A DNA stretch of 46,568 nucleotides. Source: Prauserella aidingensis. Its GTDB lineage: Bacteria; Actinomycetota; Actinomycetes; Mycobacteriales; Pseudonocardiaceae. The DNA is taken from NCBI RefSeq assembly GCF_024171865.1, contig NZ_JAMTCN010000033.1, forward strand, positions 1 to 46,568, given 5' to 3'. Positions 2,241-29,162 of this stretch are shown piece after piece. Made by a program: the position numbers and the translations under genes. Under the pieces are notes generated by a model. It was not told where the DNA came from, did no database searches, and saw only the letters and a list, made by a program, of their open reading frames with translations. The first letter of the stretch is position 1; each line of letters begins with the position of its first letter.

Positions 2241-2332
2241 CGACGCTCCTTCGGTTCCTCGTCGCGAAATTGTTGCCCTTCACGTGAATCGGGCACAAGG
2301 AACTTTCGAAGGCCGTCAGGACTGTTCCGACG

Positions 2333-4483
2333 TCACTCCGAACCGGCCTCGATGACCGCGCGGTTGGCCTCGGCCGCGGCATCGCGGTCGACCTTCACCA
2401 CGCGCCGGTCGTAGGTCAGCAGGCCGTTGACCTCGTTCTCGACGTCGGTGGTCTGCGTGTAGACGGCCGCCGACAGGCCGAGGTCCCGCACCACGGTGCG
2501 CAGCTCTCGGGCCACCTCGACGTACCGCCGCGTCAACTCCTCGGCGGAACCGGTCATCTCGTAGGCCACGGGTTCGCCGGGCCACAGGTGCCCGTCGACG
2601 GCCAGCCCCAGCCCGCCGTACTCACCGTCGGCCGTGGCCCGGTGGTCCGTCGCGAGGGGCCTGCCCGGGCCGACGTAGGTGTGATCGTCGTAGACGTGTC
2701 CCGCGCCGGAGTCGGGGTGCGAATGGCAGCAGTTGACGCCGCTGTCGGCGACGACGAGCCGTTCCGGATCGGCCGCCATCAGCCTCTCGGTGATGCGGGC
2801 GGTGTCGTACTCGCCCCAGCCCTCGTTGAAGGGCGTCCACACGACGAGCGACGTCACCGAGCGCAGCGTGGCGACGATGCCGGCCAGCTCCTCCTCGAAC
2901 CGTGCGCGGGCCCGGCCCACGGGTGGCGCCTGCGGCCCCGGTGGGTTGTCGAGCACGATCGGCAGCGACGGGATGTCCTGCCAGACGAGCAGCCCGAGCC
3001 GGTCCGCCCAGTGGTACCACCGGGCGGGCTCGACCTTGACGTGTTTGCGCACCGTGTTGAAGCCGTAGGTCTTCGCCTGCTCCAGGTCGTGGCGCAACGC
3101 CTCGTCGGTGGGGGCGGTGTAGATCCCGTCGGGCCAGTACCCCTGGTCGAGCGGGCCGTGGAGAAACGTGATCCGCCCGTTGAGAGCGATCCGCGGCCGT
3201 CCTTCCGCGTCGGGGACGAGACCGATCGTGCGCAGCCCGACGTGGCTGTGCACCTGGTCGAGGACGGCGCCCCCGGTGGTGCGCAGCCGGACGGTGACCT
3301 CGTACAGGTGCGGATCGTCCGGGCTCCACGGGCGCGGCGACGGCAGCTCGACCCGCACCGGCCGCTCGGCACCGCCCGTGACCGTCACCCCCGCGGCCTC
3401 GACCTCCACGACCGCGGCGATGTCCGGCTCACGGGCACCGGACACGTCTCGGGCGTCGGTGGGCTCCCCGGATCCGGTCGCCCCGGATGCGGTCGCCTCG
3501 GATGCGGTCGCCTCGGGCCCGCGGCGGTCCGGGCCGCCGCGGTGGTGCGCGGCGTCGGCCACGACGGCCGTGACGGTGAAGCCCGTGAGGTCCGGGGTGA
3601 CGTCGAGCCGGTCGATGCGGGTGTGCGGCACGGCTTCCAGCCACACGGTCTGCCAGATTCCCGAGGCGCCCGTGTAGAGGATCCCGCCGGGACGGTTGGC
3701 CTGTTTGCCGACGGGGAAGGTGCCGCGGTTGCCAGTGTCCTCGGCGCGCACCACGATCTCCTGCTCCCCATCGACCCGGCCGTCGGTCGATACGTCCTGC
3801 GGGGCGTCGGCGCGGAGCACGTCCGTGATGTCGACGCTGAACGGTGTGAAGCCGCCCTCGTGGCGAGCGACGAGCTGATGATTGACCCATACCGTGGCGA
3901 CCTGGTCGACGGCCCCGAAGTGCAGCAACGTCCGGTCGCCGCGCCAGTCCGCGGGCACGTCGAACGTGCGCCGGTACCACATCCGCTCGACCCGGCGGCC
4001 GATTCCGGAGAGTGCGGCTTCGGGCGGGAACGGGACGACGATCTCCTCCCTGCCGTGCGGCTCGCCGTCGCGGGCCGCGGCGGTGAACTCCCACCTGCCG
4101 TTGAGGGTGCGCCAGCGGTCCCCACGGATGAGGTGCGGGCGCGGGTGTTCCGGCAGCGGGTCGTCGGGGTCGACGTCGGCGGTCCAGGGCGTGCTCAGCG
4201 GCGCGACCGGCGAGCCGTCGGGACCGGTGGGCGCCGTGCGATCGTCGTCCGGAGCGTCGCCGGTCGGCGACCTGGCAGGCGAGGTCGGCGCCGAGGCCGC
4301 TGCCAACGCGGTCGCGTCGAGGCCCGCGGGAACAGGCGCCGCATCGGCACCATCACCGTCCGTGGCGCCGGGTTGAGCTGAATCCACGTGAGCTGAACCG
4401 GCGTGAGGGGCGCCGGTGTGAGGGGCGCCGGTGTGAGGGGCGGCGGCGTGGGTGGCGGCGTCATCCGTGGCGTCGGCGTTCAT
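2333..4483 (-). CDS. glycoside hydrolase family 2 protein (beta-galactosidase/beta-glucuronidase-like)
   Basis: About 716 residues from the ATG at 4483. Residues ~1-100 are low complexity (Ala/Pro/His/Thr/Asp) with degenerate five-residue repeats (GAPHT, GAPHT, GAPHA). The enzyme then starts: sugar-binding jelly roll with RTLNGRWEF and MWYRRTF, an immunoglobulin-like domain, and a TIM barrel. FNEGWGEYD carries the likely acid/base Glu (about residue 554) and GEYGGLGL the likely nucleophile Glu (about 621). Inside the second domain is another repeat (EATAS, EATAS, GATGS). No signal peptide is seen, so it is probably cytoplasmic. Substrate cannot be told from sequence. The true start could be an internal GTG or TTG closer to the jelly roll, because the N-terminal extension is atypical. 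Confidence 0.85.
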   Translation of the reverse strand: MNADATDDAATHAAAPHTGAPHTGAPHAGSAHVDSAQPGATDGDGADAAPVPAGLDATALAAASAPTSPARSPTGDAPDDDRTAPTGPDGSPVAPLSTPWTADVDPDDPLPEHPRPHLIRGDRWRTLNGRWEFTAAARDGEPHGREEIVVPFPPEAALSGIGRRVERMWYRRTFDVPADWRGDRTLLHFGAVDQVATVWVNHQLVARHEGGFTPFSVDITDVLRADAPQDVSTDGRVDGEQEIVVRAEDTGNRGTFPVGKQANRPGGILYTGASGIWQTVWLEAVPHTRIDRLDVTPDLTGFTVTAVVADAAHHRGGPDRRGPEATASEATASGATGSGEPTDARDVSGAREPDIAAVVEVEAAGVTVTGGAERPVRVELPSPRPWSPDDPHLYEVTVRLRTTGGAVLDQVHSHVGLRTIGLVPDAEGRPRIALNGRITFLHGPLDQGYWPDGIYTAPTDEALRHDLEQAKTYGFNTVRKHVKVEPARWYHWADRLGLLVWQDIPSLPIVLDNPPGPQAPPVGRARARFEEELAGIVATLRSVTSLVVWTPFNEGWGEYDTARITERLMAADPERLVVADSGVNCCHSHPDSGAGHVYDDHTYVGPGRPLATDHRATADGEYGGLGLAVDGHLWPGEPVAYEMTGSAEELTRRYVEVARELRTVVRDLGLSAAVYTQTTDVENEVNGLLTYDRRVVKVDRDAAAEANRAVIEAGSE

Positions 4484-4594
4484 CGCCGTCGATGGTTCCA
4501 GAGACCGGAGGGGCCGTCGGGGTGCGGACGACCGCCGCATCCCCTCACCCGGCCGCTCCGGCGGGTGTCGCTGGCCGGTGCGCGTACCGATGAG

Positions 4595-4606
4595 TAACCT
4601 CCAACC
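4595..4606 (+). promoter_or_regulatory. likely leaderless -10 promoter element of the GT4 gene
   Basis: TAACCT at 4595-4600 is followed by six bases and then the ATG at 4607, with no Shine-Dalgarno in between. In actinobacteria TANNNT placed 6-8 nt before a start codon is the usual sign of a leaderless transcript. No convincing -35 was recognised. Confidence 0.5.
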
Positions 4607-5875
4607 ATGCGCGTGTTGATGCTCTCGTGGGAGTACCCGCCGGTCGTGGTCGGCGGGCTCGCCCGGCATGTCCACGCCCTCGCCCGTCACCTCGTCGCCG
4701 ACGGCCACGACGTGACGGTGCTGTGTCGGCACGTGGCGGGCAGCGATGCCGAGACGCATCCGACGTCCGACGAGGTCGCCGAGGGCGTGCGGATCATCCG
4801 CGTGGCCGAGGACCCGTTGCACGTGACGTTCGAACGCGATCTGGTCGCCTGGACGCTGTCCATGGGCCACGCCATGATTCGTGCCGGGGCGCGGTTGGTC
4901 CGCGAATGGCCTCCGGACGTGGTGCACGCGCACGACTGGCTGGTCACCAATCCGGCCGTCGCGCTCGCGGACACCGCGGACGTCCCGCTGGTCGGCACGA
5001 TCCACGCCACCGAGGCCGGCAGGCACTCGGGGTGGCTGTCGCACCCTCTGAACCAGCAGGTGCACTCCGCGGAATGGTGGCTCGCCAACCGGTCCGACGC
5101 GCTCATCACGTGCTCACAGGCGATGCGACGCGAGGTGGCGCAGCTGTTCGACCTCGACACGGAGTCGATCAGCGTGATCCACAACGGCATCGAGGAGCGG
5201 GGCTGGCAGGTGCCTGCCGCCGAGATCACCACCGCGCGGCGGCACCACAGCCCGGACGATGCTCCCCTGCTGCTCTACTTCGGCAGGCTCGAGTGGGAGA
5301 AGGGCGTGCAGGACCTGCTCGAGGCCCTGCCCGCGGTGCGCGACCGGCATCCGGGCACCCGACTGGTCGTCGCCGGTGTCGGCAGGCACCACGACGAGCT
5401 CGTCGAGCAGGCCCACACTCTCGGCCTGGCGGAGGCGATCGACTTCGTCGGTCACCTGCCCGACCTACGGCTGCGGGCCGTACTCGCAGCCGCCGACGCC
5501 GTGGTGCTGCCCAGCCGCTACGAGCCGTTCGGCATCGTCGCGCTCGAGACGGCCGCGGCCCGGCGCCCGCTCGTGGCCTCCACCGCGGGAGGGCTCGGCG
5601 AGGTCGTGATCGACGGCGAGACCGGCCTGGCGTTCGACCCGGGCGACGTGCGAGCCATCGCGGAGGCGGTCGACACCGTGCTGGCCGACACCGGCGCCGC
5701 GGAGCGGCGTGCCCGCGCCGCACAGTCCCGGCTGGCGGCCGATTTCGACTGGGCACGCATCGCGGCCACCACCGCCGACGTGTACCGCCGCACGCGGCCC
5801 GGCGGCCCGCAGGATCTGCCCCGGCCGAAGATCCCGACCGGCAACGTCTTCGACCGCGACACCACCGAGGCATAG
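4607..5875 (+). CDS. GT4-family glycosyltransferase, glycogen-synthase-like (Rv3032-type alpha-1,4-glucosyltransferase)
   Basis: 422 residues with two Rossmann domains of GT-B fold. The N terminus RVLMLSWEYPPVVVGGLARH contains the KxGGL-equivalent nucleotide-sugar loop typical of bacterial glycogen synthases and of the mycobacterial Rv3032 group, which builds alpha-1,4-glucan for methylglucose lipopolysaccharide. The C-terminal domain has LLYFGRLEWEKGVQDL and the GT4 EPFGIVALE motif, where the two Glu contact the donor sugar. It is divergent from the GH2 gene with 123 bp between. The usual GH57 branching-enzyme partner is absent here. A role in storage glucan or polymethylated polysaccharide is inferred from family only. 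Confidence 0.82.
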   Translation: MRVLMLSWEYPPVVVGGLARHVHALARHLVADGHDVTVLCRHVAGSDAETHPTSDEVAEGVRIIRVAEDPLHVTFERDLVAWTLSMGHAMIRAGARLVREWPPDVVHAHDWLVTNPAVALADTADVPLVGTIHATEAGRHSGWLSHPLNQQVHSAEWWLANRSDALITCSQAMRREVAQLFDLDTESISVIHNGIEERGWQVPAAEITTARRHHSPDDAPLLLYFGRLEWEKGVQDLLEALPAVRDRHPGTRLVVAGVGRHHDELVEQAHTLGLAEAIDFVGHLPDLRLRAVLAAADAVVLPSRYEPFGIVALETAAARRPLVASTAGGLGEVVIDGETGLAFDPGDVRAIAEAVDTVLADTGAAERRARAAQSRLAADFDWARIAATTADVYRRTRPGGPQDLPRPKIPTGNVFDRDTTEA

Positions 5876-6030
5876 CCACCGAGGCACAGCCGCCGACACG
5901 TGAGCACCGAGCGCCACCGCCGACGTTCGGCCACCGGCCCCCGCCTGTTCGACCGGCCCCGCCTGCCCGACCTGCCCCTGCTCCGCATGCCGAAGCGCCG
6001 CTCGCGGCCGCTCCGCACCGTCGCGCCGAA

Positions 6031-6065
6031 CGGGTGGGAACGCCTGCGAGCGGCGTCCCCACCCG
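6031..6065. terminator. bidirectional hairpin between convergent GT4 and protease genes
   Basis: Fourteen-base arms at 6031-6044 and 6052-6065 pair with one mismatch around a 7-nt loop. It lies just after the protease stop codon (6070) on the minus strand and about 155 nt after the GT4 stop, as expected for a shared terminator. No T tract. Confidence 0.65.
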
Positions 6066-6069
6066 GGCG

Positions 6070-6882
6070 TCACGCCCGGTCGGCAGCCAGCTGCCCGGCG
6101 ATGTCGTCGGCGTAGGTGCCGACCCGCGCGTACACACCCGGATAGTTCGGCCGGGCGCAGCCGTTGCCCCACGACACGACGCCGGCCAGCCTTCCGTCGA
6201 CGACCAACGGACCTCCCGAGTCACCCTGACAGGCGTCGACGCCGCCCTCGGGGAGACCGGCGCAGACCATGCCCTGGGCGTCGTACTCGGAGCCGTACGC
6301 CGCGGAACAGTCCGCGTCCGACCTGACCGGCACGGTCCCCTGCAGCAACGTGTCCGACGACGAACCGCCCTCCGACGTGGTTCCCCAGCCTGCGACCGTC
6401 GCGTCGGCACCCGGCGTGTAACTCGGGCCGCCGGGGGCGGAGGCGAGAGCGATCGGTCGACCGTCGGACACCGGCGAGGCGAGGGTGAGGACCGCGACGT
6501 CGGCGCCGGTGGTGACGCTGCTGTAGTCGGGGTGCACCCAGATGTCGCTGACGGGCGTCTCGCTGCCGTCGTTCGTGGTCAGATCGGTGCGGCCGGTGAC
6601 GGCGACGACGTCGGCCGGGTCCTGACCCTCCGCGCAGTGCGCAGCCGTGAGGACCTTGTCCTCGGCGATCAGTGAACCGCCGCAGAACTGGAAGCCCGAC
6701 GCGTCGGTGAGCGCGACGGCGTAGGGGAAATCGGCGATGTCCGCGGGCGATCCGCCGACGACGTCGGGTTTCACGCCGGCGTTCTCGTCGGCGTGGGCGA
6801 CCGTGAGCGATCCGAATGCGACCGCGAGCACCACCGCGCTCACCCCCGCGGCGCGGGCGAAGGTGCGTGCGTTTCGAGCCAT
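6070..6882 (-). CDS. secreted trypsin-like serine protease (family S1)
   Basis: About 270 residues. Signal peptide at residues 1-32 (MARNAR, hydrophobic stretch, AHA). A short propeptide ends before VVGGSPADI, the usual new N terminus after activation. The triad is visible: LTAAHC (His), GADVAVLTL (Asp) and [10 protein letters not shown] with Ser at about residue 222. Asp six residues before that Ser gives trypsin specificity for cleavage after Arg or Lys. Six Cys are consistent with disulfides in a secreted enzyme. The ATG at 6882 has GGAGG (6891-6895 on this strand) eight bases upstream, which makes it preferable to earlier in-frame starts. Single gene, ended by the hairpin at 6031-6065. 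Confidence 0.93.
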
Positions 6883-7241
6883 GGGAGCTGCCTCCAATGT
6901 GGGAAAGTCACTGACCGTCCACCCATGGCAGCGCACCGCGCCTCGCCCCGGCAAGCGACGGAAGGGCCGGCACAACCCGGGCCTTGCGTCGCCACGTGAT
7001 CTGTGTTTTCGCAGCTTGGAGCAGTTCGGTGCAGGTCCGAACCGGTGCGAACGCCCGGTCGCCCCGCCGCGGGCCGTCGCCGTGGGTTCCTCACGCCGTC
7101 ACGAACGGTCCACTCGCGGGCCCACACGACCACGCGAACGGCCCATTCGTGTGGCCCACAGGCGGTCCGGAACCGACCCGCCACCGTGCCCGCCCGGTGG
7201 GTGTCCTCAGCGCGCACGCCCGGCGGGCACCCTCGGCGGCG
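6883..7241. other. intergenic region upstream of the protease gene
   Basis: About 360 bases with no convincing gene. It holds the ribosome site of the protease at 6891-6895 and the pair of direct repeats at 7100-7161. The promoter of the protease must lie here but no clear hexamers were recognised. Confidence 0.5.
7100..7161. repeat. tandem pair of ~31-bp imperfect direct repeats
   Basis: Units 7100-7130 and 7131-7161 align from CACG..AACGG to the GGCCCACA block with a few differences. Each unit carries GTGTGG/CCCACA-like material also found in the repeats at 36677-36820, so the two loci may belong to one dispersed intergenic family. Confidence 0.5.
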
Positions 7242-7640
7242 TCACGACCGGTAGATCGCCTTGTAGGTCTCCCAGCCCTCGGCGTCCGCGGCGTTCTCCC
7301 GCTCCCTGCGGACGGCGCGGGCCTGGCCGTACTCGTAGCCGTGCTTGGCGACGCGCAACTCGACGCTCTCGTCCCCGTAGGCCTGCGAGTAGAACACGCC
7401 CACCACCATCGCCATCAGCGACAGCGACAGTCGCAGGCCCAGCGGTCCGGGCAGCAGGAGCCAGACCGACGCGAGCGGAATCAGGTACACGAGGCTGCGC
7501 GCCGCGAGCCGCCAGCGCCACGCCCTGCTCGTCGCGTCCTTCAGCACCCACGGCGCCAGCTCCGCCGGCAGCCGGCCGCCCACCGAGTACCGGAGCCACT
7601 GCACCGGGCCGGGTCGCACCTTGTCCTCGCTCGCAGCCAC
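7242..7640 (-). CDS. DUF5313-like small membrane protein
   Basis: About 132 residues from the GTG at 7640. The order PVQWLRYSVGGRLP, then WVLKDATSRAWRWR, then a hydrophobic pair (about residues 50-95) and a C-terminal GYEYGQARAVRRERE tail resembles the actinobacterial DUF5313 family, whose function is unknown. Two membrane segments are likely. The start was chosen because TAGCCT (7653-7648 on this strand) lies seven bases before it, a leaderless arrangement, while the earlier in-frame start at 7691 has no ribosome site and would add a non-conserved extension. Family assignment is from memory and moderately sure. Confidence 0.7.
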   Translation of the reverse strand: MAASEDKVRPGPVQWLRYSVGGRLPAELAPWVLKDATSRAWRWRLAARSLVYLIPLASVWLLLPGPLGLRLSLSLMAMVVGVFYSQAYGDESVELRVAKHGYEYGQARAVRRERENAADAEGWETYKAIYRS

Positions 7641-7647
7641 GACAGCC

Positions 7648-7653
7648 AGGCTA
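7648..7653 (-). promoter_or_regulatory. likely leaderless -10 element of the DUF5313 gene
   Basis: TAGCCT on the minus strand, seven bases before the GTG start at 7640; no Shine-Dalgarno is present. Confidence 0.4.
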
Positions 7654-7736
7654 ACCGCAGGCGGCCCGGCGCCGACCCGCAGCGGCCTCACGTCACACGG
7701 TGGCCGCAGGGTCCGTGGTGCGGACTTCCCGTGTCG

Positions 7737-8723
7737 TCACGCAGGCGGACCGCCGTGCGCAGGGCCGGCGGTGGCCGCGGCCCGTACCGCGCCCTTGAGC
7801 TTGCCGATGCCGTAGAGCACGTACCCCACGCCGATCACACCCGCCAGCAGCATCGCGATCATGCCGGCGAACTCGTCGTCACCGGGGTCGAGGAAGCCGT
7901 AGCTGTCCAACCCCGCGGCGAGGTAGAAGACCAGATAGGCCAAGGGGAACGCGATCCACGTCAGCGGATGCCACCACCGCGCCTCGGACTGGTTCCGGCC
8001 CACCGCGCACCAGTCGACCAGCACCAGCAACGGCGTGACGATGTGCTCGAACGGCAGATGGTCGGCGTCGCCGCCCATGATCCCGAAGAATGCGCCGGAG
8101 ACGAGCAGCAACAGCACCGTCGTGGCACCGCGCAGCCAGGGGCCACGAGGTTCGTGTCGTCTCCCTGCCGTGAACAACGGGTACGCCAGCAACCCGAGGT
8201 AGACGATCCCCGCGAGCAGGCTGGCGAGTTGGCTCAGTTCCTCGAAGTTCCGGCTCCAGCCGGTCGCGTCGCCGACGCCGTACAGCGCGCACCCGGCGAT
8301 GAGCAGTCGCCACACGCTGACGCCCGCCAACACCGCGGGATGCACTCCGCCGGGCTGCGGCGCGGTGCCGTGCGGCGGCTGTGGCGGCGGGTACGGCGCC
8401 CCGGGCGGCGGGTACTGGGCCTGCGGGTACGGGGCCGCGGGATGCTGTGGCGACAGGTGGGGCGGCATGTGGGACGGCATGTGCGGCGGCCCGTGATGCG
8501 GAGGCCCACCCTGCGGACCCGGCTGAGCGTGCCCCTGCCGCCCCGGCACCGGCTGCCCCTGCGGAACCGGTGACGCCTGACCGGGACCGTGCTGACCGGG
8601 CTGGGCCTGGCCCGGCGGCACCTGACCCGGCGGTGGCCCGCCCGGCGGCATCTGCCGCGGGTCGCCGTGCGGCTGCTGCGGTCGGGGCCCGTACGCCGGC
8701 CCCTGCGGTGTCCACCCTGCCAT
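7737..8723 (-). CDS. Pr6Pr-like integral membrane protein with Pro/Gly/Gln-rich N-terminal tail
   Basis: 328 residues. Residues 1-130 are almost entirely Pro, Gly, Gln and His in short imperfect repeats (for example PPGQ, HMP) and probably form a disordered cytoplasmic tail. Residues 131-315 hold about six hydrophobic segments beginning VWRLLIAGCALYGV and including WHPLTWIAFPLAYLVFYL, a pattern like the Pr6Pr (FAR-17a/AIG1-like) membrane family. No catalytic motif is recognised. It lies downstream of malate synthase but two hairpins separate them, so it is probably its own transcription unit. Function unknown. Confidence 0.7.
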   Translation of the reverse strand: MAGWTPQGPAYGPRPQQPHGDPRQMPPGGPPPGQVPPGQAQPGQHGPGQASPVPQGQPVPGRQGHAQPGPQGGPPHHGPPHMPSHMPPHLSPQHPAAPYPQAQYPPPGAPYPPPQPPHGTAPQPGGVHPAVLAGVSVWRLLIAGCALYGVGDATGWSRNFEELSQLASLLAGIVYLGLLAYPLFTAGRRHEPRGPWLRGATTVLLLLVSGAFFGIMGGDADHLPFEHIVTPLLVLVDWCAVGRNQSEARWWHPLTWIAFPLAYLVFYLAAGLDSYGFLDPGDDEFAGMIAMLLAGVIGVGYVLYGIGKLKGAVRAAATAGPAHGGPPA

Positions 8724-8753
8724 TCACGCCATCGTGTCAGAGAGCGGTGGTAC

Positions 8754-8783
8754 GGCGGTGGCGGGCGATCTCCCGCCACCGCC
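8754..8783 (-). terminator. perfect 12-bp hairpin downstream of malate synthase
   Basis: Arms 8754-8765 and 8772-8783 pair perfectly around a 6-nt loop. It sits between the malate synthase terminator and the start of the Pr6Pr-like gene, so it may back up termination or lie in the leader of the latter. Confidence 0.45.
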
Positions 8784-8808
8784 ACCGCCGTGCCACGCGC
8801 ACGCGAAC

Positions 8809-21635: not shown

Positions 21636-22490
21636 ATGGAGACGACGAGCGATTCCTTCCGCACCTCCACCGGGGTCGACCTCGGACTGGAACACTTCGG
21701 TGATCCGGCGGCACCGCTCGTCCTGCTCGTCGGAGGCCCGACGATGCTGTCGTGGCCCGACGAACTCTGCGAGGCACTGGCTCGCCGGGGACGCCACGTC
21801 GTGCGCTACGACCTGCGCGATGCGGGCGCGTCGACCACCGGGGACCCGGACGCCCCGGACTACACCCTGCGCGACCTCGCCCGCGACGCCGCCGTGCTCG
21901 CCCGCGACCTCGACGATCTACCTGCACACCTGGCCGGTATCGGGATCGGCGGCATGGTCGCCCAGGTGGCCGCGCTCGACCACCCCGACGCGTTCTCGGC
22001 GCTGACCCTCGCGGGCACGCGGCCCGTCGCTCCGGGCCCGGTCGACGCCGACCTGCCCGACCACGACGCCCACACCATGGAACGGGCGTTCGCGCTCCCG
22101 GCTCCGGACTGGTCCGACCGCGACGCCGTGGCCGACTTCGCCGCCGCGAACGCCGAGGTCCTCGGCAACGACCCGACGGCTGCACGCGCCACCGCGGCCC
22201 GCATCTTCGACCGCACGCCGTCGGCGGAGCCTGCGGTGCACCGCGCCAACCAGCTGGGCACGGTCTTCGCCGCACTGGACTGCACACCGCGCTGGCGGGA
22301 GCGACTCTCCGAGTTGGCCGTGCCGACGCTCGTCGTCCACGGCAGGCGCGACCCGTTCTTCCCCGTGGGCAACGGCGAAACCCTCGCCACGGAGATCCCC
22401 GACGCCCGGTTGCACGTGCTCGACGAGGCGGCGGCCGCGATCCCCCACGATCTCGTCGAGGAGGTCGCGGCCGCCATGGTCGCGCGGTAG
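21636..22490 (+). CDS. alpha/beta-hydrolase fold protein lacking the nucleophile Ser
   Basis: About 284 residues, similar in layout to RdmC-like esterases: LVLLVGGPTMLSWPDELCEAL, RYDLRDAGASTT, then the nucleophile elbow. The elbow reads GIGIGGM (residues 101-107) where active members have GxSxG, so the nucleophile position is Gly103. The acid motif VVHGRRDPFFPV and a C-terminal His in IPHDLVEE remain. It may be a non-catalytic binding protein or use another mechanism. ATG 21636 has GGAG eight bases upstream; GTG 21630 is an alternative. It converges on the P450 gene with 42 bp between. Confidence 0.82.
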   Translation: METTSDSFRTSTGVDLGLEHFGDPAAPLVLLVGGPTMLSWPDELCEALARRGRHVVRYDLRDAGASTTGDPDAPDYTLRDLARDAAVLARDLDDLPAHLAGIGIGGMVAQVAALDHPDAFSALTLAGTRPVAPGPVDADLPDHDAHTMERAFALPAPDWSDRDAVADFAAANAEVLGNDPTAARATAARIFDRTPSAEPAVHRANQLGTVFAALDCTPRWRERLSELAVPTLVVHGRRDPFFPVGNGETLATEIPDARLHVLDEAAAAIPHDLVEEVAAAMVAR

Positions 22491-22532
22491 ACCGCCGACC
22501 GGGCCTGTCGAACCCGCCTGGTCCGTCGGCCG

Positions 22533-23771
22533 TCACGGCCGCCAGGTGACCGGAAGCGCGTGAACACCGTAGATGTTCATGTCGGTCCTGAGTGGAACGT
22601 CGTCGGCGGGCACGGCGAGCCGGAGCGTCGGGAAACGCCGTAACAGCGCTCCGAAACCGGCACGCAGCTCCATCCGGGCCAACTGGCCTCCGAGGCACTG
22701 ATGCACCCCGTGGCCGAACGCCACCTGGCCACGGGCATCGCGGCGGAGGTCGAGCGTGTCGGGATCGTCGAACCGCCGCGGATCGCGGTTGGCTGCCAGC
22801 AGTGACACCACGACGGTCGACCCGGCATCGATGGTCTCGCCGCCCAACGGGATGTCCTCGGTGGCATAGCGGTAGAAGATGTCGGCGACGGACAGGTAGC
22901 GCATCAGCTCCTCCACCGCCCGTGGCAGCAGCTCCGGATCGGCCCGCAGCGCGGCCGCCTGCTGCGGATGCTGCAGCAGTGCGAAGGTGCCGAGCCCCAA
23001 CATGTTCGCCGTCGTCTCGTACCCGGCGAGCATCAGCAGGAAGGCCGTTCCGGTCAGTTCCCCGATCGTCAGGTCGTCCTGCCCTGCCAGCTCGGAGAGG
23101 ATGTCGTCACCGGGCTCGGCCCGTTTGCGGGTGACGAGTTCGGCCAGATACGTCGTCATGGCCGAGTAGGCCGCCATCTTGTCCTCGAGCGACGGATCCC
23201 GCATCAGGAAGGTGGCGGCGTCCTCCTGGAATCCCTGCCGGTCGGCGTAGGGCACCCCGAGCAGTTCGCAGATCACCAGCGACGGCACCGGTAGTGCGAA
23301 CTCGGCCACCAGGTCCACCGGTGATTGCTTCAGCGACATCGCGTCCAGAACCCCTTCGACGACGTCGACGACGCGCTGCTCCAGCTGCTTCATCCGGGTG
23401 GCGGTGAACGCGGCGGTGAGCCTGCGCCGCAGCCGCGTGTGATCCGGCGGGTCCATCGCGATGAACAGTCCCGGCGTCGGTGGGCTCGGCTCGGTCTGTA
23501 CCGGCATGCCCGGGGTCTCGTACGGCACGTGCACGACGCCGAGGTCCTGCCGGGAACTGAACCGGGTGTCCGCCAGCAGTCGACGTGCCTCGTCGTGGCC
23601 GGTGACGAGCCAGCCCCGGTGTCCGTCGGGGAAGCCGAGCGGACTGACCGGGCGCACGTCGCGCAGAGCGGCGAGGGCGCCGGGCGAATCGAAGGGTCCC
23701 CGGTCGCGTTCCGTGGGGAGTCGCTGCGGTACGGGGGCCGCACCGCCTGCGGGTGTGTTGGCGTGTGGCAT
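22533..23771 (-). CDS. cytochrome P450 monooxygenase
   Basis: About 412 residues, the usual length for soluble bacterial P450s. Landmarks: I-helix oxygen-binding motif LMLAGYETTAN, K-helix EELMRYL (ExxR), and heme loop FGHGVHQCLGGQLAR with the iron-ligating Cys at about residue 359. MDPPDHTRLRRRLTAAFT is the C-helix block. ATG 23771 has GGAGG seven bases upstream. It starts 45 nt after the ABC permease on the same strand, so it is probably co-transcribed with the exporter, as for a tailoring or detoxifying enzyme. Substrate unknown; it needs ferredoxin and reductase from elsewhere. Confidence 0.95.
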   Translation of the reverse strand: MPHANTPAGGAAPVPQRLPTERDRGPFDSPGALAALRDVRPVSPLGFPDGHRGWLVTGHDEARRLLADTRFSSRQDLGVVHVPYETPGMPVQTEPSPPTPGLFIAMDPPDHTRLRRRLTAAFTATRMKQLEQRVVDVVEGVLDAMSLKQSPVDLVAEFALPVPSLVICELLGVPYADRQGFQEDAATFLMRDPSLEDKMAAYSAMTTYLAELVTRKRAEPGDDILSELAGQDDLTIGELTGTAFLLMLAGYETTANMLGLGTFALLQHPQQAAALRADPELLPRAVEELMRYLSVADIFYRYATEDIPLGGETIDAGSTVVVSLLAANRDPRRFDDPDTLDLRRDARGQVAFGHGVHQCLGGQLARMELRAGFGALLRRFPTLRLAVPADDVPLRTDMNIYGVHALPVTWRP

Positions 23772-23816
23772 TCGCGTTCCTCCGTAGGGTTTCACCGATC
23801 CGAGAGCGTTGCTCGG

Positions 23817-24644
23817 TCAGTGGGGGTATTCGCGGTTGAACAGGCGGCGTGACCACAGGTAGCCGGCCGCGGCGCACAGCACGCACCAGCCGAGCGCGAA
23901 CCACGCCTCGTTGCCGATCGGGCCGCCGGTCAGCAACCCGCGCAGGGTCCCGATGATCGGCGTGAACGGCTGGTACTCGGCGAACCACCGCAGCCCCGCG
24001 GGCATCGACTCCACGGGCACGAACCCGCTGCCGAGGAACGGCAACAGCACCAGCGGCATCAGCACGTTGCTCGCGGTCTCGACGCTCGAACACGCCTGTC
24101 CGGCCGCGACCGCGAGCCACACCAGGGCGAACGTGACGGCCAGGAGCAGTCCGGCCGCGGCGAGCCAGGCCGCCGGCCCCGCCGACGGCCGGAAACCGAC
24201 GAGCAACGCGACCCCGATCACGACGACGAGCGCGATCGCCGCCTGGATGACACTGCCCAGTACGTGGCCGGTCAGGACCGACATGCGGGCGATGTGCATG
24301 GTGCGCAGCCGCGCGACGATGCCCTCGGTCAGGTCCGTGGCGACCGAGATCGCGGTACCCTGCACGGTGGAGGTCACGGTCATCACGATGATCGCGGGCA
24401 CGACGTAGGCCACGTACTCGGCGCGGCCGGCTCCGGCTGTTCCCGCGATGCCGGCTCCCAGTGCGTCGCCGAAGACGTACACGAACAGCAGCAGGAACAC
24501 GACCGGCATGCCGACGAGGGTCAGCGTCATCGACGGATACCGGAGCATGTGACGGAGGTTCCGCCGGAGCATGGTCGCCGAGTCCCGCAACGGGTGTATC
24601 TGTCCAATGTGGACCTGGGTCGTAGGGGTGGTGGTGTGGGTCAT
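23817..24644 (-). CDS. DrrB-type ABC-2 exporter permease
   Basis: About 275 residues with six predicted membrane helices, beginning in MTLTLVGMPVVFLLLFVYVFG and ending in ALGWCVLCAAAGYLW. A VVPAIIVMTVTSTVQGTAISVATDLTEGIVARLRTM block is typical of the ABC-2 transporter family that includes daunorubicin-resistance DrrB. It forms an exporter with the ATPase encoded just upstream: the two genes overlap by four bases (ATGA at 24641-24644), a sign of translational coupling. Substrate unknown; the following P450 suggests a small hydrophobic compound. Confidence 0.9.
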   Translation of the reverse strand: MTHTTTPTTQVHIGQIHPLRDSATMLRRNLRHMLRYPSMTLTLVGMPVVFLLLFVYVFGDALGAGIAGTAGAGRAEYVAYVVPAIIVMTVTSTVQGTAISVATDLTEGIVARLRTMHIARMSVLTGHVLGSVIQAAIALVVVIGVALLVGFRPSAGPAAWLAAAGLLLAVTFALVWLAVAAGQACSSVETASNVLMPLVLLPFLGSGFVPVESMPAGLRWFAEYQPFTPIIGTLRGLLTGGPIGNEAWFALGWCVLCAAAGYLWSRRLFNREYPH

Positions 24645-25597
24645 GGCGTACCCGCTTTCTCGTCGGCCGGATGTCCGGTGAGTGCCAGGAAGACGTCGTC
24701 GAGATCGGGCGTGTGGATCGTCAGGCCCTCGACGTCGATACGGTGGTGGTCGAGCAGGCCCAGCAGGGTCCGGAGTGATCCGACACCGCCGTCGCCGGGC
24801 ACCTGCAGCGCGAGCGCGTCGTCGTCCCGCGTCGCGGACCCGACCACCCGTGACGCGGCCTCGAGTGCGCCGATGTCCCCGAACTGCAACCGGACGTGCC
24901 CACCGGGGATGCGCCGTTTCAGTTCGTCGGGTGTCCCCTCGGCGACGAGACGGCCGTGGTCGAGCACGGCGACCCGGTCGGCGAGTGCGTCGGCCTCGTC
25001 CAGGTACTGCGTCGTCAGGAACACTGTGACGCCGCCGGCGACGAGTTCGTCGACGATGCGCCACATGTCTCGGCGGCTGCGTGGATCGAGTCCGGTGGTC
25101 GGCTCGTCGAGAAAGATCACCCGCGGCCGGCCCATCAGCGTCATGGCGAGGTCGAGCCTCCGCCGCATACCGCCGGAATAGGTGGAGGCGGGTTTTCCCG
25201 CGGCATCGGTGAGGTCGAACCGTTCGAGCAGCTCGGCCGCGCGGGCTCGGCCCGTGGCACGGTCGAGGTGGTGCAGGTCGGCCATCAGCCGCAGGTTCTC
25301 GGCGCCGGTGAGCAGTCCGTCCACGGCGGAGAACTGCCCGGTCACGCCGATGGCGGCCCGCACGGCGTCGCGGTCGGCGGCCACGTCGTGCCCGGCGACC
25401 CGCGCGCTGCCGCCGTCGGCGGCGAGCAGGGTGGTGAGAATCTTGACGGTCGTCGTCTTGCCGGCACCGTTGGCGCCGAGCAGGGCGAACACCGTGCCGG
25501 ACGCGACGGTCAGGTCGAGACCGTCGAGAACGACGTGGTCGGCGAACGACCGGCGGAGCCCGTTCACGGCGATCGCCGGTGGACTGTGATTGGTCAT
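24641..25597 (-). CDS. DrrA-type ABC exporter ATP-binding protein
   Basis: About 318 residues. Walker A LGANGAGKTTTVK, Q-loop VTGQFSAVDGLLTG, signature YSGGMRRRLDLA, Walker B RVIFLDEPTTGLDPRSRR and H-loop QYLDEADALADR. The C-terminal ~90 residues (LQFGDIGALEAASRVV..., LTIHTPDLDDVFLALTG) match the DrrA-type extension seen in antibiotic-resistance exporters. ATG 25597 has AAAGGA upstream. The 256-bp space before it, on the side of the DUF4097 gene, is long enough for a separate promoter. Confidence 0.93.
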   Translation of the reverse strand: MTNHSPPAIAVNGLRRSFADHVVLDGLDLTVASGTVFALLGANGAGKTTTVKILTTLLAADGGSARVAGHDVAADRDAVRAAIGVTGQFSAVDGLLTGAENLRLMADLHHLDRATGRARAAELLERFDLTDAAGKPASTYSGGMRRRLDLAMTLMGRPRVIFLDEPTTGLDPRSRRDMWRIVDELVAGGVTVFLTTQYLDEADALADRVAVLDHGRLVAEGTPDELKRRIPGGHVRLQFGDIGALEAASRVVGSATRDDDALALQVPGDGGVGSLRTLLGLLDHHRIDVEGLTIHTPDLDDVFLALTGHPADEKAGTP

Positions 25598-25647
25598 GGT
25601 CGTCCTTTCTGGACAGGAGGCATCGACGGCGAAAAGGGGAATTCGAG

Positions 25648-25735
25648 GGAGAACCGTTCGCCGAATGCGGGAACGGCACGAGTCGACCGCCGTGTCGGTC
25701 ACGGATCACGAGCGGTGAGGAGAACGGTTCGCCGA
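25648..25735. repeat. 17-bp near-identical repeat pair upstream of drrA-type gene
   Basis: GGAGAACCGTTCGCCGA at 25648-25664 and GGAGAACGGTTCGCCGA at 25719-25735 differ at one base, 71 bp apart. The core GAACSGTTC is itself close to palindromic. Location 51-138 nt before the ATPase start suggests an operator pair. The rest of the 25598-25853 gap holds short purine-rich GGCGAGRTG repeats and no convincing gene. Confidence 0.45.
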
Positions 25736-25853
25736 GGTGAGATACGGCGAGATGCGGCGAGGTGAGAGGACGCGAGGCGGAACGGACTCGGTGTGCGAAC
25801 CGACCGGGAGCGGTGCCGGCGGATCGCCGACCGGTGACCGCGCCGGGGTCGCG

Positions 25854-26702
25854 TCAGGCGCGGCGGACGGTGACGTCGCCGGTCGAGGTGCGACCCCGGA
25901 CCTCGACGGTCCGGTCGGACTCGTCGGGGCCGAGTGCGTCGTCGAGCAGGTTGCGGAGTTGGCCGAACGTGGTCTCGACGTCGAGCCACGCGGCGGTTCC
26001 CGCGGCGATGCCGAGGTCGAGGTCGCCCATCGACGTACCCAGTTCCACCCTGCCGCGTGCGATCTCACCGAGCCGGATGGGGCCGTTGTGGGTCCTGACG
26101 TCGACGTTCGCACCGGCCTCGTCCACGAGGATGGCCCCGTTGGCGGAGCGGACGCGCAGGTCTCCGGCCACGGCGTCGATCTCGGTGTCGCCGTTGGAGT
26201 TCTTGATCCCGGCGTCGCCCTCCACCCTGCCGACACTGACCTTGCCCGAACCGGTGCGGATGTCACCGTCGCCGTCGATCCTGTCGACGGTGACGTGACC
26301 GGCGCCGGTGCCGAGCTGTGCGGGGCCGCTGCGTTCGACCCGGATGTCGCCCATCCCGGTCTTGAGCTTCACCCCGCCCAGCGCGCCCTCGCACCGGACA
26401 CCGCCCATGTGGAGCCTGCCGTCCACTCGGGACCCGGCGGGCAGTTCGATCGTGATGTCGGCCGAGCGGGTCTTGCGGGAGAAGTCGAACGCGCGGGGCT
26501 TCTGCCCGGTCACCCGCACTTCGTCGCCGGACTGGTCGACCCGGACCTTGCCGGCTGCCTCCACATCGGACTCGTTCGACGGGTCGCTCGCGGCGACCTC
26601 GACGACCGTGTCGGCCCGGTCACTCGCGACGATGTGGACGTCACGGGCGACACCGAGGTCGAGCATTACGAAGACAGGCCCGGGAGTGTCGAAGACAAGC
26701 AT
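25854..26702 (-). CDS. DUF4097-family beta-strand repeat (adhesin-like) protein
   Basis: About 282 residues made largely of short beta repeats containing G-D-I/V motifs (TGMGDIRVE, TGAGHVTVD, GDGDIRTGSGKVSV, NGDTEIDAVAGDLRVRSANGAI, TSTGDVTVRR), the right-handed beta-helix pattern of DUF4097. No signal peptide or membrane anchor, so it is probably cytoplasmic. Molecular role unknown for the family; in actinomycetes it is often found between a small RHH regulator and a DrrAB-type exporter, as here. ATG 26702 is preferred over the GTG two codons earlier because the AAAGG ribosome site is well spaced for it. Confidence 0.85.
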   Translation of the reverse strand: MLVFDTPGPVFVMLDLGVARDVHIVASDRADTVVEVAASDPSNESDVEAAGKVRVDQSGDEVRVTGQKPRAFDFSRKTRSADITIELPAGSRVDGRLHMGGVRCEGALGGVKLKTGMGDIRVERSGPAQLGTGAGHVTVDRIDGDGDIRTGSGKVSVGRVEGDAGIKNSNGDTEIDAVAGDLRVRSANGAILVDEAGANVDVRTHNGPIRLGEIARGRVELGTSMGDLDLGIAAGTAAWLDVETTFGQLRNLLDDALGPDESDRTVEVRGRTSTGDVTVRRA

Positions 26703-26797
26703 GATCACCCTTTCTCACGTGCCGGCACCGCCGGCCGGACGGCCGGGAGCCGGGCGATGGCGTGCTGACGTGGAGCACGTGCGGACATGCGGACCGG

Positions 26798-27325
26798 TCA
26801 CCGCACCCAACCGGTGAACTGCTGCCGCGAGCGGACTCCCGACGCGGCGCCGCCACGGCGCCCGTCGTCGCCCTCGCCGCCCAGTGCCGCCGCGGCAGCG
26901 CGCACCAGCCAGGCGTTGACCGACCGGCCCTCCTCGGCCGCGGCCTCGTCCACCGCCGCCTTCAGCTTCTCGGGCAGGCGGACGTTGATCCGCGTGGTCG
27001 GGCCGTCCTCCGCGATCGAGACCGCGGACTCGGACCTGCCAGCGGTCGGCGGCGTGCGGTCGCCGACCGGCCCCGACGCTTCGGGCGTCGGTGTCACGAC
27101 GAACTCGGGATCACGGCCCCGCAACCGCAGTTCGACCGCCCCGGGAGCCAGGTCCCGGGTGATCTCGTCGGCAGCCCCCGACAACGCGTCGAGCAGCGTC
27201 ATCCGGATCGCCGATTCGAGCGAACCCGCCAGCCGCTCGACCAGTGCGCGAGCGTCCTCGCCACCAGCCTCGGCGAGCGCGGCGAACTCCCGGCCGAGGT
27301 TGTCCACGTACACGTTCAACTCCAT
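26798..27325 (-). CDS. ribbon-helix-helix (HicB/Arc-like) regulator
   Basis: 175 residues. N-terminal helical part MELNVYVDNLGREFAALAEAGGEDARALVERL, a flexible Pro/Thr/Ser centre (about 82-110) and a C-terminal Arc-type ribbon-helix-helix at about 112-150 (TRINVRLPEKLKAAVDEAAAEEGRSVNAWLVRAAAAAL). Such proteins are often labelled HicB-family antitoxin, but no toxin gene is next to it, so a plain repressor is more likely. It leads the cluster with the DUF4097 gene 95 nt downstream. A strong promoter with a perfect palindrome in its spacer lies directly before it (27332-27360), suggesting autoregulation. No Shine-Dalgarno; the ATG is six bases after the -10. Confidence 0.85.
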   Translation of the reverse strand: MELNVYVDNLGREFAALAEAGGEDARALVERLAGSLESAIRMTLLDALSGAADEITRDLAPGAVELRLRGRDPEFVVTPTPEASGPVGDRTPPTAGRSESAVSIAEDGPTTRINVRLPEKLKAAVDEAAAEEGRSVNAWLVRAAAAALGGEGDDGRRGGAASGVRSRQQFTGWVR

Positions 27326-27496
27326 GGCTCAACTATGGCATCACCGTGATGCCAATGCAAGCCCTGTTGGCTCAGGAACGGCTCGAGATGCGCCAAGACG
27401 AGAGTGCCGACCCCTTTCACCAGGGACAACTCGGGGCGTCAATCGTGAGCCAATGCGGTGCCACAGGTGGCTCATGTAGGCTCATCCTCTGGCTCA
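27325..27496. repeat. array of TGGCTCA boxes upstream of the RHH cluster
   Basis: TGGCTCA occurs on the + strand at 27325-27331, 27368-27374, 27468-27474 and 27490-27496, on the minus strand at 27452-27446, and as AGGCTCA at 27478-27484. The three at 27468-27496 are spaced 10 and 12 bp, about one helical turn. The first overlaps the start codon and the gap between -10 and start. Confidence 0.6.
27332..27360 (-). promoter_or_regulatory. promoter with palindromic operator for the RHH-DUF4097 genes
   Basis: On the minus strand: -35 TTGCAT (27360-27355), 17-bp spacer, -10 CATAGT (27337-27332), then six bases to ATG 27325. A perfect inverted repeat with nine-base arms (TGGCATCAC at 27336-27344, GTGATGCCA at 27346-27354, one central base) fills the spacer. 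A repressor bound there would block RNA polymerase, and the RHH protein encoded next is the obvious candidate. Confidence 0.7.
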
Positions 27497-27585
27497 CCCG
27501 GGCGCACCCGATGGCCGGCCGGTGCTCGCCGAGGGGGCGGTGCCGCCAACGCCGTTCGCCGCCGCGGCGGTGAACGGCGGCGTGG

Positions 27586-28758
27586 TCACGGGCGCGGGTG
27601 GCGCAGTCGCGCTGCCTGCCGGGTCAGGTGCTCACGCTCGGGAACGCTCGTGGCAGCGCGGGCGGCCTCGGCGTACAGGTCCGCCGCACGGACGTGCTCG
27701 CCCGCGCGCTCGTGCAGGTAGGCCAACGCGGCGGCGTACCGCGGAAGGCTGGGATCCACCTGCTCGAGCGCCGCCAAGCCCGCTCGGGCCCCGTCGGCCT
27801 CCCCGACCGCGACCGCCCGGTTCAACCGCACCACGGGGCTGCCGGTGAGTCGGAGCAGTTCGTCGTACCACTCCACGATCTGCGGCCAATCCGTCTCGGC
27901 CGCCGTCGGGGCATCGGCGTGCAACGCGGCGATCGCCGCCTGGGCCTGGTACTCGCCGAGCCGATCCCGCGCGAGGGCCGCCTGCAGGATCTCCACGCCC
28001 TCCGCGATCAGCCCGGTGTCCCAGCGGCCACGGTCCTGCTCGGCGAGGGGTACCAGCCGTCCCTCCGCGTCCGTGCGGGCCGCGCGGCGGGCGTGGTGCA
28101 ACAGCATCAGCGCCAACAATCCCGCCACCTCGGGGTCATCGGTCAACGCGGCGAACTGGCGGGTCAGCCGAACGGCCTCCGCCGCCAGGTCGACGTCGCC
28201 GCCGTAGCCCTCGTTGAAGACGAGGTACAGCACCCGCAACACCGTCGCCGGGTCGCCGGACCTGTCGAACGACTCGCCCGCGATCCGCCGCTTGGCCCTG
28301 CTGATCCGCTGCGCCATCGTCGCTTCGGGCACCAGGTACGCCGCGGCGATCTGCCGCGTGGTGAGGCCGCCGACGGCACGCAGCGTCAGCGCGACCGCCG
28401 ACGCGGGAGACAGCGACGGATGGGCGCACAGGAAGTACAGCCGGAGCGTGTCGTCCGTGACCGGGGTGGGGCCCGGCGGGGGCTCGGCCGCCACCGCGAC
28501 CTCGCGCCCCCGCCGCGACTCCTCCGCCCGCCGGGCGTCGACGAACCGGCGCCACGACGCCGCGATCAGCCACCCCTTCGGGTCGCGCACGGGCTCCGCA
28601 CCGCCGGACGAGTGTGACGGCGAGCCGTCGGGCCACGTCTCCAGCGCCCGGATCACGGCCTCCTGCACCGCGTCCTCCGCCGACGCGAAGTCCGCCCCGC
28701 GCCGGACGAGCACCCCGATCACGGCGGGCACCAGCTCCCGCAGCGCCGCCGGATTCAC
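27586..28758 (-). CDS. ECF42-type sigma factor with C-terminal TPR-like extension
   Basis: About 390 residues. Sigma region 2 at residues 1-75 (RGADFASAEDAVQEAVIRALETWP; PKGWLIAASWRRFVDARR), region 4 at about 105-165 (SAVALTLRAVGGLTTRQIAAAYLVPEATMAQRISRAKRRI), then ~220 residues of helical repeats (DUF6596 type: FNEGYGGDVDLAAEAVRL, LLALMLLHHARR, PQIVEWYDELLRLTGSPVVRLNRAVAV, YAAALAYLHERAGEHVRAADLYAEAA). This layout defines the ECF42 group, which lacks an anti-sigma factor and is paired with DGPF proteins. Its GTG start at 28758 overlaps the DGPF gene stop by four bases (GTGA), so the two are coupled. Confidence 0.92.
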   Translation of the reverse strand: MNPAALRELVPAVIGVLVRRGADFASAEDAVQEAVIRALETWPDGSPSHSSGGAEPVRDPKGWLIAASWRRFVDARRAEESRRGREVAVAAEPPPGPTPVTDDTLRLYFLCAHPSLSPASAVALTLRAVGGLTTRQIAAAYLVPEATMAQRISRAKRRIAGESFDRSGDPATVLRVLYLVFNEGYGGDVDLAAEAVRLTRQFAALTDDPEVAGLLALMLLHHARRAARTDAEGRLVPLAEQDRGRWDTGLIAEGVEILQAALARDRLGEYQAQAAIAALHADAPTAAETDWPQIVEWYDELLRLTGSPVVRLNRAVAVGEADGARAGLAALEQVDPSLPRYAAALAYLHERAGEHVRAADLYAEAARAATSVPEREHLTRQAARLRHPRP

Positions 28759-29162
28759 TCGGCGGTCTCGGCCTTGTTCGACAGGAACGGCCGCAGTTCG
28801 AGCCATTCGTGGATCGGCTCGCCGTTCGGACCGGGAGCCGCCGACAGTTCGCCCGCCAGTTCGAGCGCCCGCTCGTAGGATTCGACGTCGATCACCATCC
28901 AGCCCGCGACGAGATCCTTGGTCTCGGCGAACGGCCCGTCCGTCACCGGCGGGCGCCCCTCGCCGTCGTAGCGCACGAACGTGCCCTCGGGCGAGAGCGC
29001 CTGTGCGTCGACGAACTCACCCGTGGACTGCAGTTTCGCCGCGAAGTCGCTCATGTAGCGCATGTGCGCGTCGACCTCGTCGGGGCTCCAGCGGTCGATC
29101 GTTCCGTAGTCGACGACCGGCTCCGGCCCGCCCCGGTAGTGCTTCAGCAGCAGGTACTTCAT
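28755..29162 (-). CDS. DGPF (YCII-related) protein paired with ECF42
   Basis: 135 residues with the family motif VTDGPFAETKDLVAGWMVIDVESYERALELA at about 73-103 and an N-terminal MKYLLLKHYRGG strand. DGPF/YCII proteins have a ferredoxin-like fold of unclear activity and are the standard genomic partners of ECF42 sigma factors, probably as targets or modulators. ATG 29162 has AGGAGG seven bases upstream. The gene overlaps the sigma factor gene by four bases and has a candidate ECF42 promoter upstream (29214-29240), so the operon is probably autoregulated. Confidence 0.9.
   Translation of the reverse strand: MKYLLLKHYRGGPEPVVDYGTIDRWSPDEVDAHMRYMSDFAAKLQSTGEFVDAQALSPEGTFVRYDGEGRPPVTDGPFAETKDLVAGWMVIDVESYERALELAGELSAAPGPNGEPIHEWLELRPFLSNKAETAE

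Follow-up and report, generated by a model that had tools for sequence, protein, structure and literature searches.

Candidate phased autorepression operators that run through the leaderless start codons of RHH genes in RHH-Toastrack operons

Autorepressors with a ribbon-helix-helix (RHH) fold are well known, and several described regulators resemble in part the system reported here. The Arc repressor of phage P22 carries an asparagine in the middle of its DNA-reading strand with an arginine after it, and is a protein of about 53 amino acids that has no N-terminal domain and uses another operator. MetJ, which requires S-adenosylmethionine, acts at met boxes, which are rows of contiguous 8-bp quasi-palindromes. 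The heptads of the omega repressor of pSM19035, a member of the MetJ/Arc family, likewise adjoin one another. Autoregulatory omega dimers occupy rows of these short repeats (NATCACN) over the promoter, in both palindromic and nonpalindromic arrangements, which provides a precedent for RHH dimers on rows of boxes (PMC4803016). In the crystal structure of AmrZ from Pseudomonas aeruginosa with DNA, two half-sites (TGGC...GCC) are bound, and Val20, in the middle of the strand, makes contact with the two cytosines opposite GGC. Its authors argue that thymine at those cytosines would clash with Val20, and a mutant site in which GGC is changed to GTC is bound 9.8-fold more weakly (PMC3325190). Operons of Actinobacteria that combine genes for an RHH protein, a Toastrack (DUF4097) protein, and an ABC transporter have already been noted in a survey of PSP systems, where Toastrack proteins are proposed to assemble signalling complexes at the membrane; the survey text on these operons concerns gene arrangement and gives no operator, promoter, or specificity classes (PMC11237479).

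The window analyzed here, a stretch of 46,568 nucleotides of Prauserella aidingensis DNA, holds genes in the same arrangement. On the minus strand, an RHH regulator gene (26798–27325; 175 amino acids) is followed by a DUF4097 gene (25854–26702; 46.7 bits against a cut-off of 22.9), whose probable ATG at 26702, chosen by eye, comes after AGAAAGGG. Next are an ABC-2 type exporter gene (23817–25709; ABC2_membrane, and weakly DrrB-like at scores below the NCBIfam cut-offs) and, 21 bp after it, a cytochrome P450 gene (22533–23795). DUF4097 is thus encoded beside an RHH regulator and an ABC transporter, the combination by which Toastrack/PSP-linked operons are recognized. Unlike the omega heptads, the putative binding sites at this locus are 8-bp boxes spaced at about 11 bp, with the start codon included in the last one, and the operon carries a Toastrack gene. 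What appears to be new is an operator with a phase of about 11 bp that runs through a leaderless start codon and differs by one base between paralogue classes. No published description of this operator was found in the literature searched, which was covered at the level of titles and abstracts and with most subscription journals outside its scope. A 'HicB-like' protein encoded next to DUF4097, in itself an annotation dead end, would in this way become a testable switch.

The RHH protein consists of an N-terminal helical/beta-hairpin domain, a disordered linker, an RHH domain with the strand RINVRL, and a disordered tail ending in FTGWVR. Residues 111–146 exceed the Pfam cut-offs for RHH_5 (28 bits; cut-off 26), RHH_1 (27; 20.5), and Arc (21.6; 20.4). 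The HicB profile also scores above its cut-off (24.8 bits; 21), with only its positions 19–49 of 51, the RHH part, being aligned. An AlphaFold2 model made with 49 relatives (pTM 0.32), with high confidence largely confined to the helices of the N-terminal and RHH parts, predicts a helical N-terminal part at residues 3–56, a beta-hairpin at 64–77, a low-confidence linker at 83–109, RHH helices at 119–132 and 136–149, and a low-confidence tail. The best Foldseek matches of the RHH part are to Arc (1baz and 1par; E 0.1–0.2), and AmrZ (3qoq) is matched as well, with all E-values above 0.1; for the N-terminal domain, no PDB match was recognized in the Foldseek list. With the register set by eye, the strand is Lys-Val-Arg in AmrZ versus Arg-Asn-Arg or Arg-Thr-Arg in the proteins of the present family. 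The FTGWVR tail, encoded at 26801–26818, is predicted to be disordered, and a G-W/Y motif near the C terminus is kept in relatives with Asn (143/144), Thr (56/69), or Ser (13/18) in the middle of the strand, as might be expected of a docking peptide.

Upstream of the RHH gene, the minus strand reads TTGCAT (27360–27355), a 17-bp spacer, CATAGT (27337–27332), TGAGCC, and then the ATG (27325). Six bases between the -10 hexamer and the ATG correspond to the geometry of leaderless genes, which are common in Actinobacteria, and transcription of the RHH gene would thus begin at its ATG. On the plus strand, positions 27336–27354 read TGGCATCAC C GTGATGCCA, a perfect 19-bp dyad with 9-bp arms. The palindrome, both hexamers, and the six-base gap had been described in an earlier note on this DNA, and direct reading confirms them all. 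The same note had the dyad exactly filling the spacer, which needs correction: the spacer is 27338–27354, and the dyad also overlaps the -10 hexamer, at its first two bases. The two hexamers match the consensus at 3/6 and 4/6 bases, and a generic sigma-70 consensus scan of 22400–28900 found no promoters and did not list this one. Support for the promoter comes from its conservation and not from its agreement with a consensus.

At the 71% GC of the window, a palindrome of the 9+1+9 form is not unusual by chance, with two observed compared to a mean of 0.875 in 40 dinucleotide shuffles, although shuffling of the 260-bp intergenic region gave one in only 4 of 1000 trials. A stronger signal than the palindrome itself is how densely (A/T)GCCA occurs. 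Eight copies on either strand are present at 27323–27585 versus 1.7 in shuffles, a count reached in 0 of 2000 shuffles and by no other 263-bp segment of the window taken in 20-bp steps.

Related promoters were collected through loci chosen for the similarity of their proteins, a choice made before any of the promoters had been inspected. The first searches for relatives yielded 31 orthologue loci and 40 regions among the matches listed, and a further search yielded 30 loci and 40 regions, again among the matches listed; all 80 loci of one further set and 30 of the 37 nonwindow rows of another were also used. L008–L019, which are paralogues or gene pieces mostly counted under other locus identifiers, were left out of the counts. 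The paralogue L011 of genome G006 is counted nowhere, and one G006 gene was sampled twice (L007 and L079). Merging of identical upstream regions reduced 221 loci to 202, and the 232 promoters used for the class comparison below are all different. Two classes are distinguished by the residue at the middle of the DNA-reading strand: Asn in class N, to which the window gene belongs, and Thr in class T. The class T protein of the window genome (P0004, at G000:C5) is a longer paralogue that shares both domains, N-terminal and RHH, with the window protein and whose gene is likewise followed by DUF4097. Counts of promoter geometry are based on distinct sequences, namely 139 promoters of class N and 56 of class T.

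In these relatives, the leaderless geometry is well conserved. An A at -11 together with a T at -7, as in the -10 hexamer of the window (27332–27337, minus strand), is found in 136/139 class N and 53/56 class T promoters. The TTG of the -35 hexamer (27355–27360, minus strand) is present in 133/139 class N promoters, at -35 in 114 and at -36 in 19 more, and all but one of the 139 have an ATG start (138/139). A Shine-Dalgarno-like motif at -16 to -5 is missing from 138/139 class N and 55/56 class T promoters.

As judged from these alignments, the conserved unit is a row of 8-bp boxes with the core GCCA, about 11 bp apart, and not the palindrome. The boxes lie at -7 to +1, -18 to -11, and -29 to -22, often with another at -46, and cover the spacer, the -10 hexamer, and the start codon. 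Box 1 (TTGAGCCA; 27325–27332, minus strand) begins with the last T of CATAGT and is closed by the A of the start codon; class N promoters have GCCA at -3 (99/139) or TGGC at -7 (40/139) in this place. Box 2 (TGATGCCA; 27336–27343, minus strand), of which the C and A of CATAGT are a part, has GCCA at -14 in 129/139. For box 3 (TGGCATCA; 27347–27354, minus strand), whose strong half is on the left, the counts are 103/139 for GCCA at -25 and 34/139 for TGGC at -29, and for box 4 (TGAGCCA; 27368–27374, minus strand), upstream of the -35 hexamer, 85/139 have GCCA at -46. Furthermore, TGGC, the reverse complement of GCCA, is found at -39 in 52/139, and boxes at -67 and -68 each occur in about a fifth to a quarter of class N promoters. 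When the 139 distinct class N promoters are aligned at the ATG, the background for all these counts is a median of 0–1 per position.

Among 75 promoters (74 loci and the window, with six loci omitted for their short flanks), the spacing between cores of the same orientation peaks at 11, 21–22, and 32 bp, and core density is 4.0 per 50 bp at -50 to -1 and drops to 0.12–0.23 beyond -150. Steps of about 11 bp place the boxes on one face of the helix. With the start codon lying inside the operator, promoter, protein, and binding site are linked to one another, and most of these RHH genes would carry their own operator in a form that can be read from sequence.

The dyad is thus very probably one part of a phased operator through which the RHH protein represses its own gene. 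RHH dimers would bind the quasi-palindromic 8-bp boxes, with GCCA on either strand, in steps of about 11 bp, over a stretch that begins near -50 and ends with the A of the ATG. When occupied, the boxes would cover the spacer, the -10 hexamer, and the start point and would shut off the leaderless RHH transcript, and this shutoff probably extends to the DUF4097 and exporter genes (and the P450 gene, where present) behind it. There is a small chance that the protein is mainly an activator or a dual regulator, given that omega and AmrZ both activate and repress (PMC4803016; PMC3325190), that boxes lie upstream of the -35 hexamer, and that the window holds a distal cluster of five GCCA-type boxes (27446–27496; at 27446, 27457, 27468, 27478, and 27490, in steps of 10–12 bp) some 120–170 bp upstream of the ATG (about -121 to -171). 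However, the best conserved boxes cover the spacer, the -10 hexamer, and the start, and a protein bound there should keep polymerase out.

Autorepression from a row of boxes must also be weighed against a simpler arrangement, in which the 19-bp palindrome is the sole operator and binds one RHH tetramer. Its arms do face each other like those of the AmrZ site TGGC...GCC, and the dyad is perfect both in the window species and in its nearest relative, L005. The dyad arises here because the strong halves of boxes 3 and 2 lie left and right, respectively, so that the two boxes face each other across 3 bp. Elsewhere, boxes 3 and 2 usually have the same orientation, and a perfect dyad is therefore seldom met. 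Conservation of the dyad in aligned upstream regions of homologous loci, which the earlier note had proposed as a check, did not hold: it is perfect in only 2 of 139 class N promoters and reaches 8/9 in 9 more (8/9 or better in 11/139). The perfect dyad is a local variant, and boxes 1, over the ATG, and 4 are conserved as well, which makes a single palindromic operator improbable. The palindrome as the conserved unit was rejected on these counts. Of the repressor-controlled leaderless promoter that had been proposed, the repressor-type operator, the conserved hexamers, the six-nucleotide gap, and the missing Shine-Dalgarno motif are all supported, whereas the identification of the operator with the palindrome does not. 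In its own genome, the dyad occurs without mismatches in a single place, and two other places match it with three mismatches.

Class T promoters share the geometry of class N and have GTCA in place of GCCA as the core, with the consensus box TGACGTCA and with box 3 placed 1 bp further upstream. GACGTC is the core both of this consensus box and of the met box. At the middle position of the DNA-reading strand, occupied by Asn114 in the window protein, members of the GCCA class have Asn (mostly R-I-N-V/F/L-R) and members of the GTCA class have Thr (R-I/M/V/T/L-T-L/V-R). Across the 232 different promoters, GCCA is more frequent than GTCA in 141 of 144 that belong to Asn proteins (2 opposite, 1 tie), and GTCA is more frequent than GCCA in 64 of 69 that belong to Thr proteins (3 opposite, 2 ties). 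The 18 Ser proteins divide into 10 with GTCA, 3 with GCCA, and 5 ties; the single Asp protein goes with GTCA. The cognate core is found in all three canonical boxes in 114/144 class N and 53/69 class T promoters, and the core of the other class in 1/144 and 1/69, respectively; in the Ser class, all three carry GTCA in 6/18 and GCCA in 1/18. The class N exceptions are L105, which has no array, L230, which is mixed, and L227, which has GTCA in the -10 and spacer boxes despite its Asn. In class T, GCCA is at least as frequent as GTCA in L052, L055, L065, and L118. Within the Ser-class family f16 (RISLR), no clear array was seen in L124, L125, L127, L128, L130, L139, and L141, and these relatives may have lost autoregulation.

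It is plausible that the middle strand residue helps to select GCCA or GTCA, with Asn114 favoring GCCA in the window protein and Thr favoring GTCA in the paralogue. The GGC-to-GTC change made in the AmrZ site differs from the GCCA/GTCA difference between the classes and shows only that the middle base matters. A Fisher test of residue versus core (p 1.4e-47) counts related rows and is not a phylogenetic test. Trees were made of 122, 125, and 124 rows, for which part of classes N and T was a random draw, with L317 omitted from the last. The wider tree has three Asn/Thr changes at its best topology, of which starred branches force one, and the smaller tree has one change for class N. At most three independent Asn/Thr pairs are available. 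In an AU test, class N as one clade is not rejected (p 0.917), and the switch may therefore be a single evolutionary event kept ever since. Repeated independent switches are unsupported, given that a single Asn clade passes the AU test and the starred branches force just one change. Even so, the two classes form a natural data set on specificity change in beta-strand regulators. We lean toward the broader view that these are class-wide, self-repressing RHH-Toastrack modules with operators through leaderless start codons, in which Asn reads GCCA, Thr reads GTCA, and paralogue operators are private. If so, two paralogues in one cell would hold separate operators of the same architecture.

Because site conservation by itself does not reveal which protein binds, an additional concern is that a different, global regulator binds the array and that the RHH gene is merely one of its targets. 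A model of the class N promoter was built from sequence only, using 32 class N promoters with the window included, and the best 150 of about 900–3100 first-look candidates per genome were scored (about 900–8800 for all genome model searches), so that weak targets may be missed. In its own genome, the RHH promoter, which is part of the model, scores E 1.4e-11, and the next best match scores 0.17. The promoter of the class N gene is the best match in each of the four genomes of the genus that carry one (E 1.4e-11, 1.5e-5, 1.8e-5, and 0.0025), whereas the three genomes without a class N gene have no match below E 0.1 (best E 0.11, 0.33, and 1.3). In 25 further genomes, which were selected for having a class N gene, all 34 matches at E ≤ 0.01 are promoters of the RHH family (28 class N, 6 class T); several of these belong to the model's own set, and the point of this count is thus the lack of other targets. 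At E ≤ 0.05, the matches number 42, and the 8 weaker ones (E 0.01–0.05) comprise 2 paralogue promoters, 3 family promoters matched on the opposite strand, and 3 nonfamily genes (E about 0.02) that by eye resemble TetR (two genomes) and LysR regulators.

A global regulator as the binder is very unlikely in view of the 34/34 matches at RHH-family genes among the 150 candidates scored per genome, the three genomes of the genus that lack both the class N gene and any match below E 0.1, and the change of the box core with RHH class. Binding by the RHH protein encoded next to the operator, as originally suggested, is the most probable reading of these sequence comparisons. A broader regulon was also considered and is unsupported, since, among the 150 candidates scored per genome, all 34 class N model matches at E ≤ 0.01 in the 25 genomes are family promoters. 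With a class T promoter model, the paralogue's own promoter is the best match in 7/7 genomes of the genus. Its 11 matches at E ≤ 0.01 include two at class N promoters, one to the opposite strand of a class T promoter, and one away from any RHH gene (G003:C4, E 0.0027).

The gene neighborhood is informative as to what an autorepressing RHH protein might control. In 81 loci (80 of class N plus the class T locus of the window genome, with flanks of at most 4 kb except for L237), a DUF4097 homologue lies downstream from the RHH gene in 81/81, an exporter homologue is present in 73/81, and a P450 homologue is present in 17/81, downstream in 16. Control of a DUF4097/exporter/P450 cluster, as the earlier note had it, would therefore be general only in part, with the first two genes recurring in all or most loci and the P450 gene in few. 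The operon would probably be self-limiting, and repression would be lifted by a signal, from the envelope or from export, that DUF4097 relays. Release might follow from engagement of the RHH protein through its N-terminal domain or its tail; DUF4097 as the partner in this step would be a guess. The operator would offer a handle on what DUF4097-exporter operons respond to. Just upstream of the RHH gene and on the same strand lies a gene for an ECF42-like ECF sigma factor with DUF6596 (27586–28806). Its position and the conserved hexamers could suggest that the pattern is only the promoter class of a special sigma factor with a conserved start region, a highly improbable reading because a homologue of the sigma gene is near the RHH gene in only 5/81 loci and the boxes go on beyond -35, to -46 and at times to -67/-68.

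Two additional features of the upstream DNA can be recorded. L005 has a cluster comparable to the distal one in the window, at a similar distance, and L006 a weaker one, with none at that distance in L007. The distal cluster might have a role in looping or belong to a second promoter. The DNA between the distal cluster and the promoter looks diverged in L005 and L006. Separately, a TGACCWGM element is found at about -82 to -105 upstream of class N genes in 14/75 promoters, in several cases with a run of T after it.
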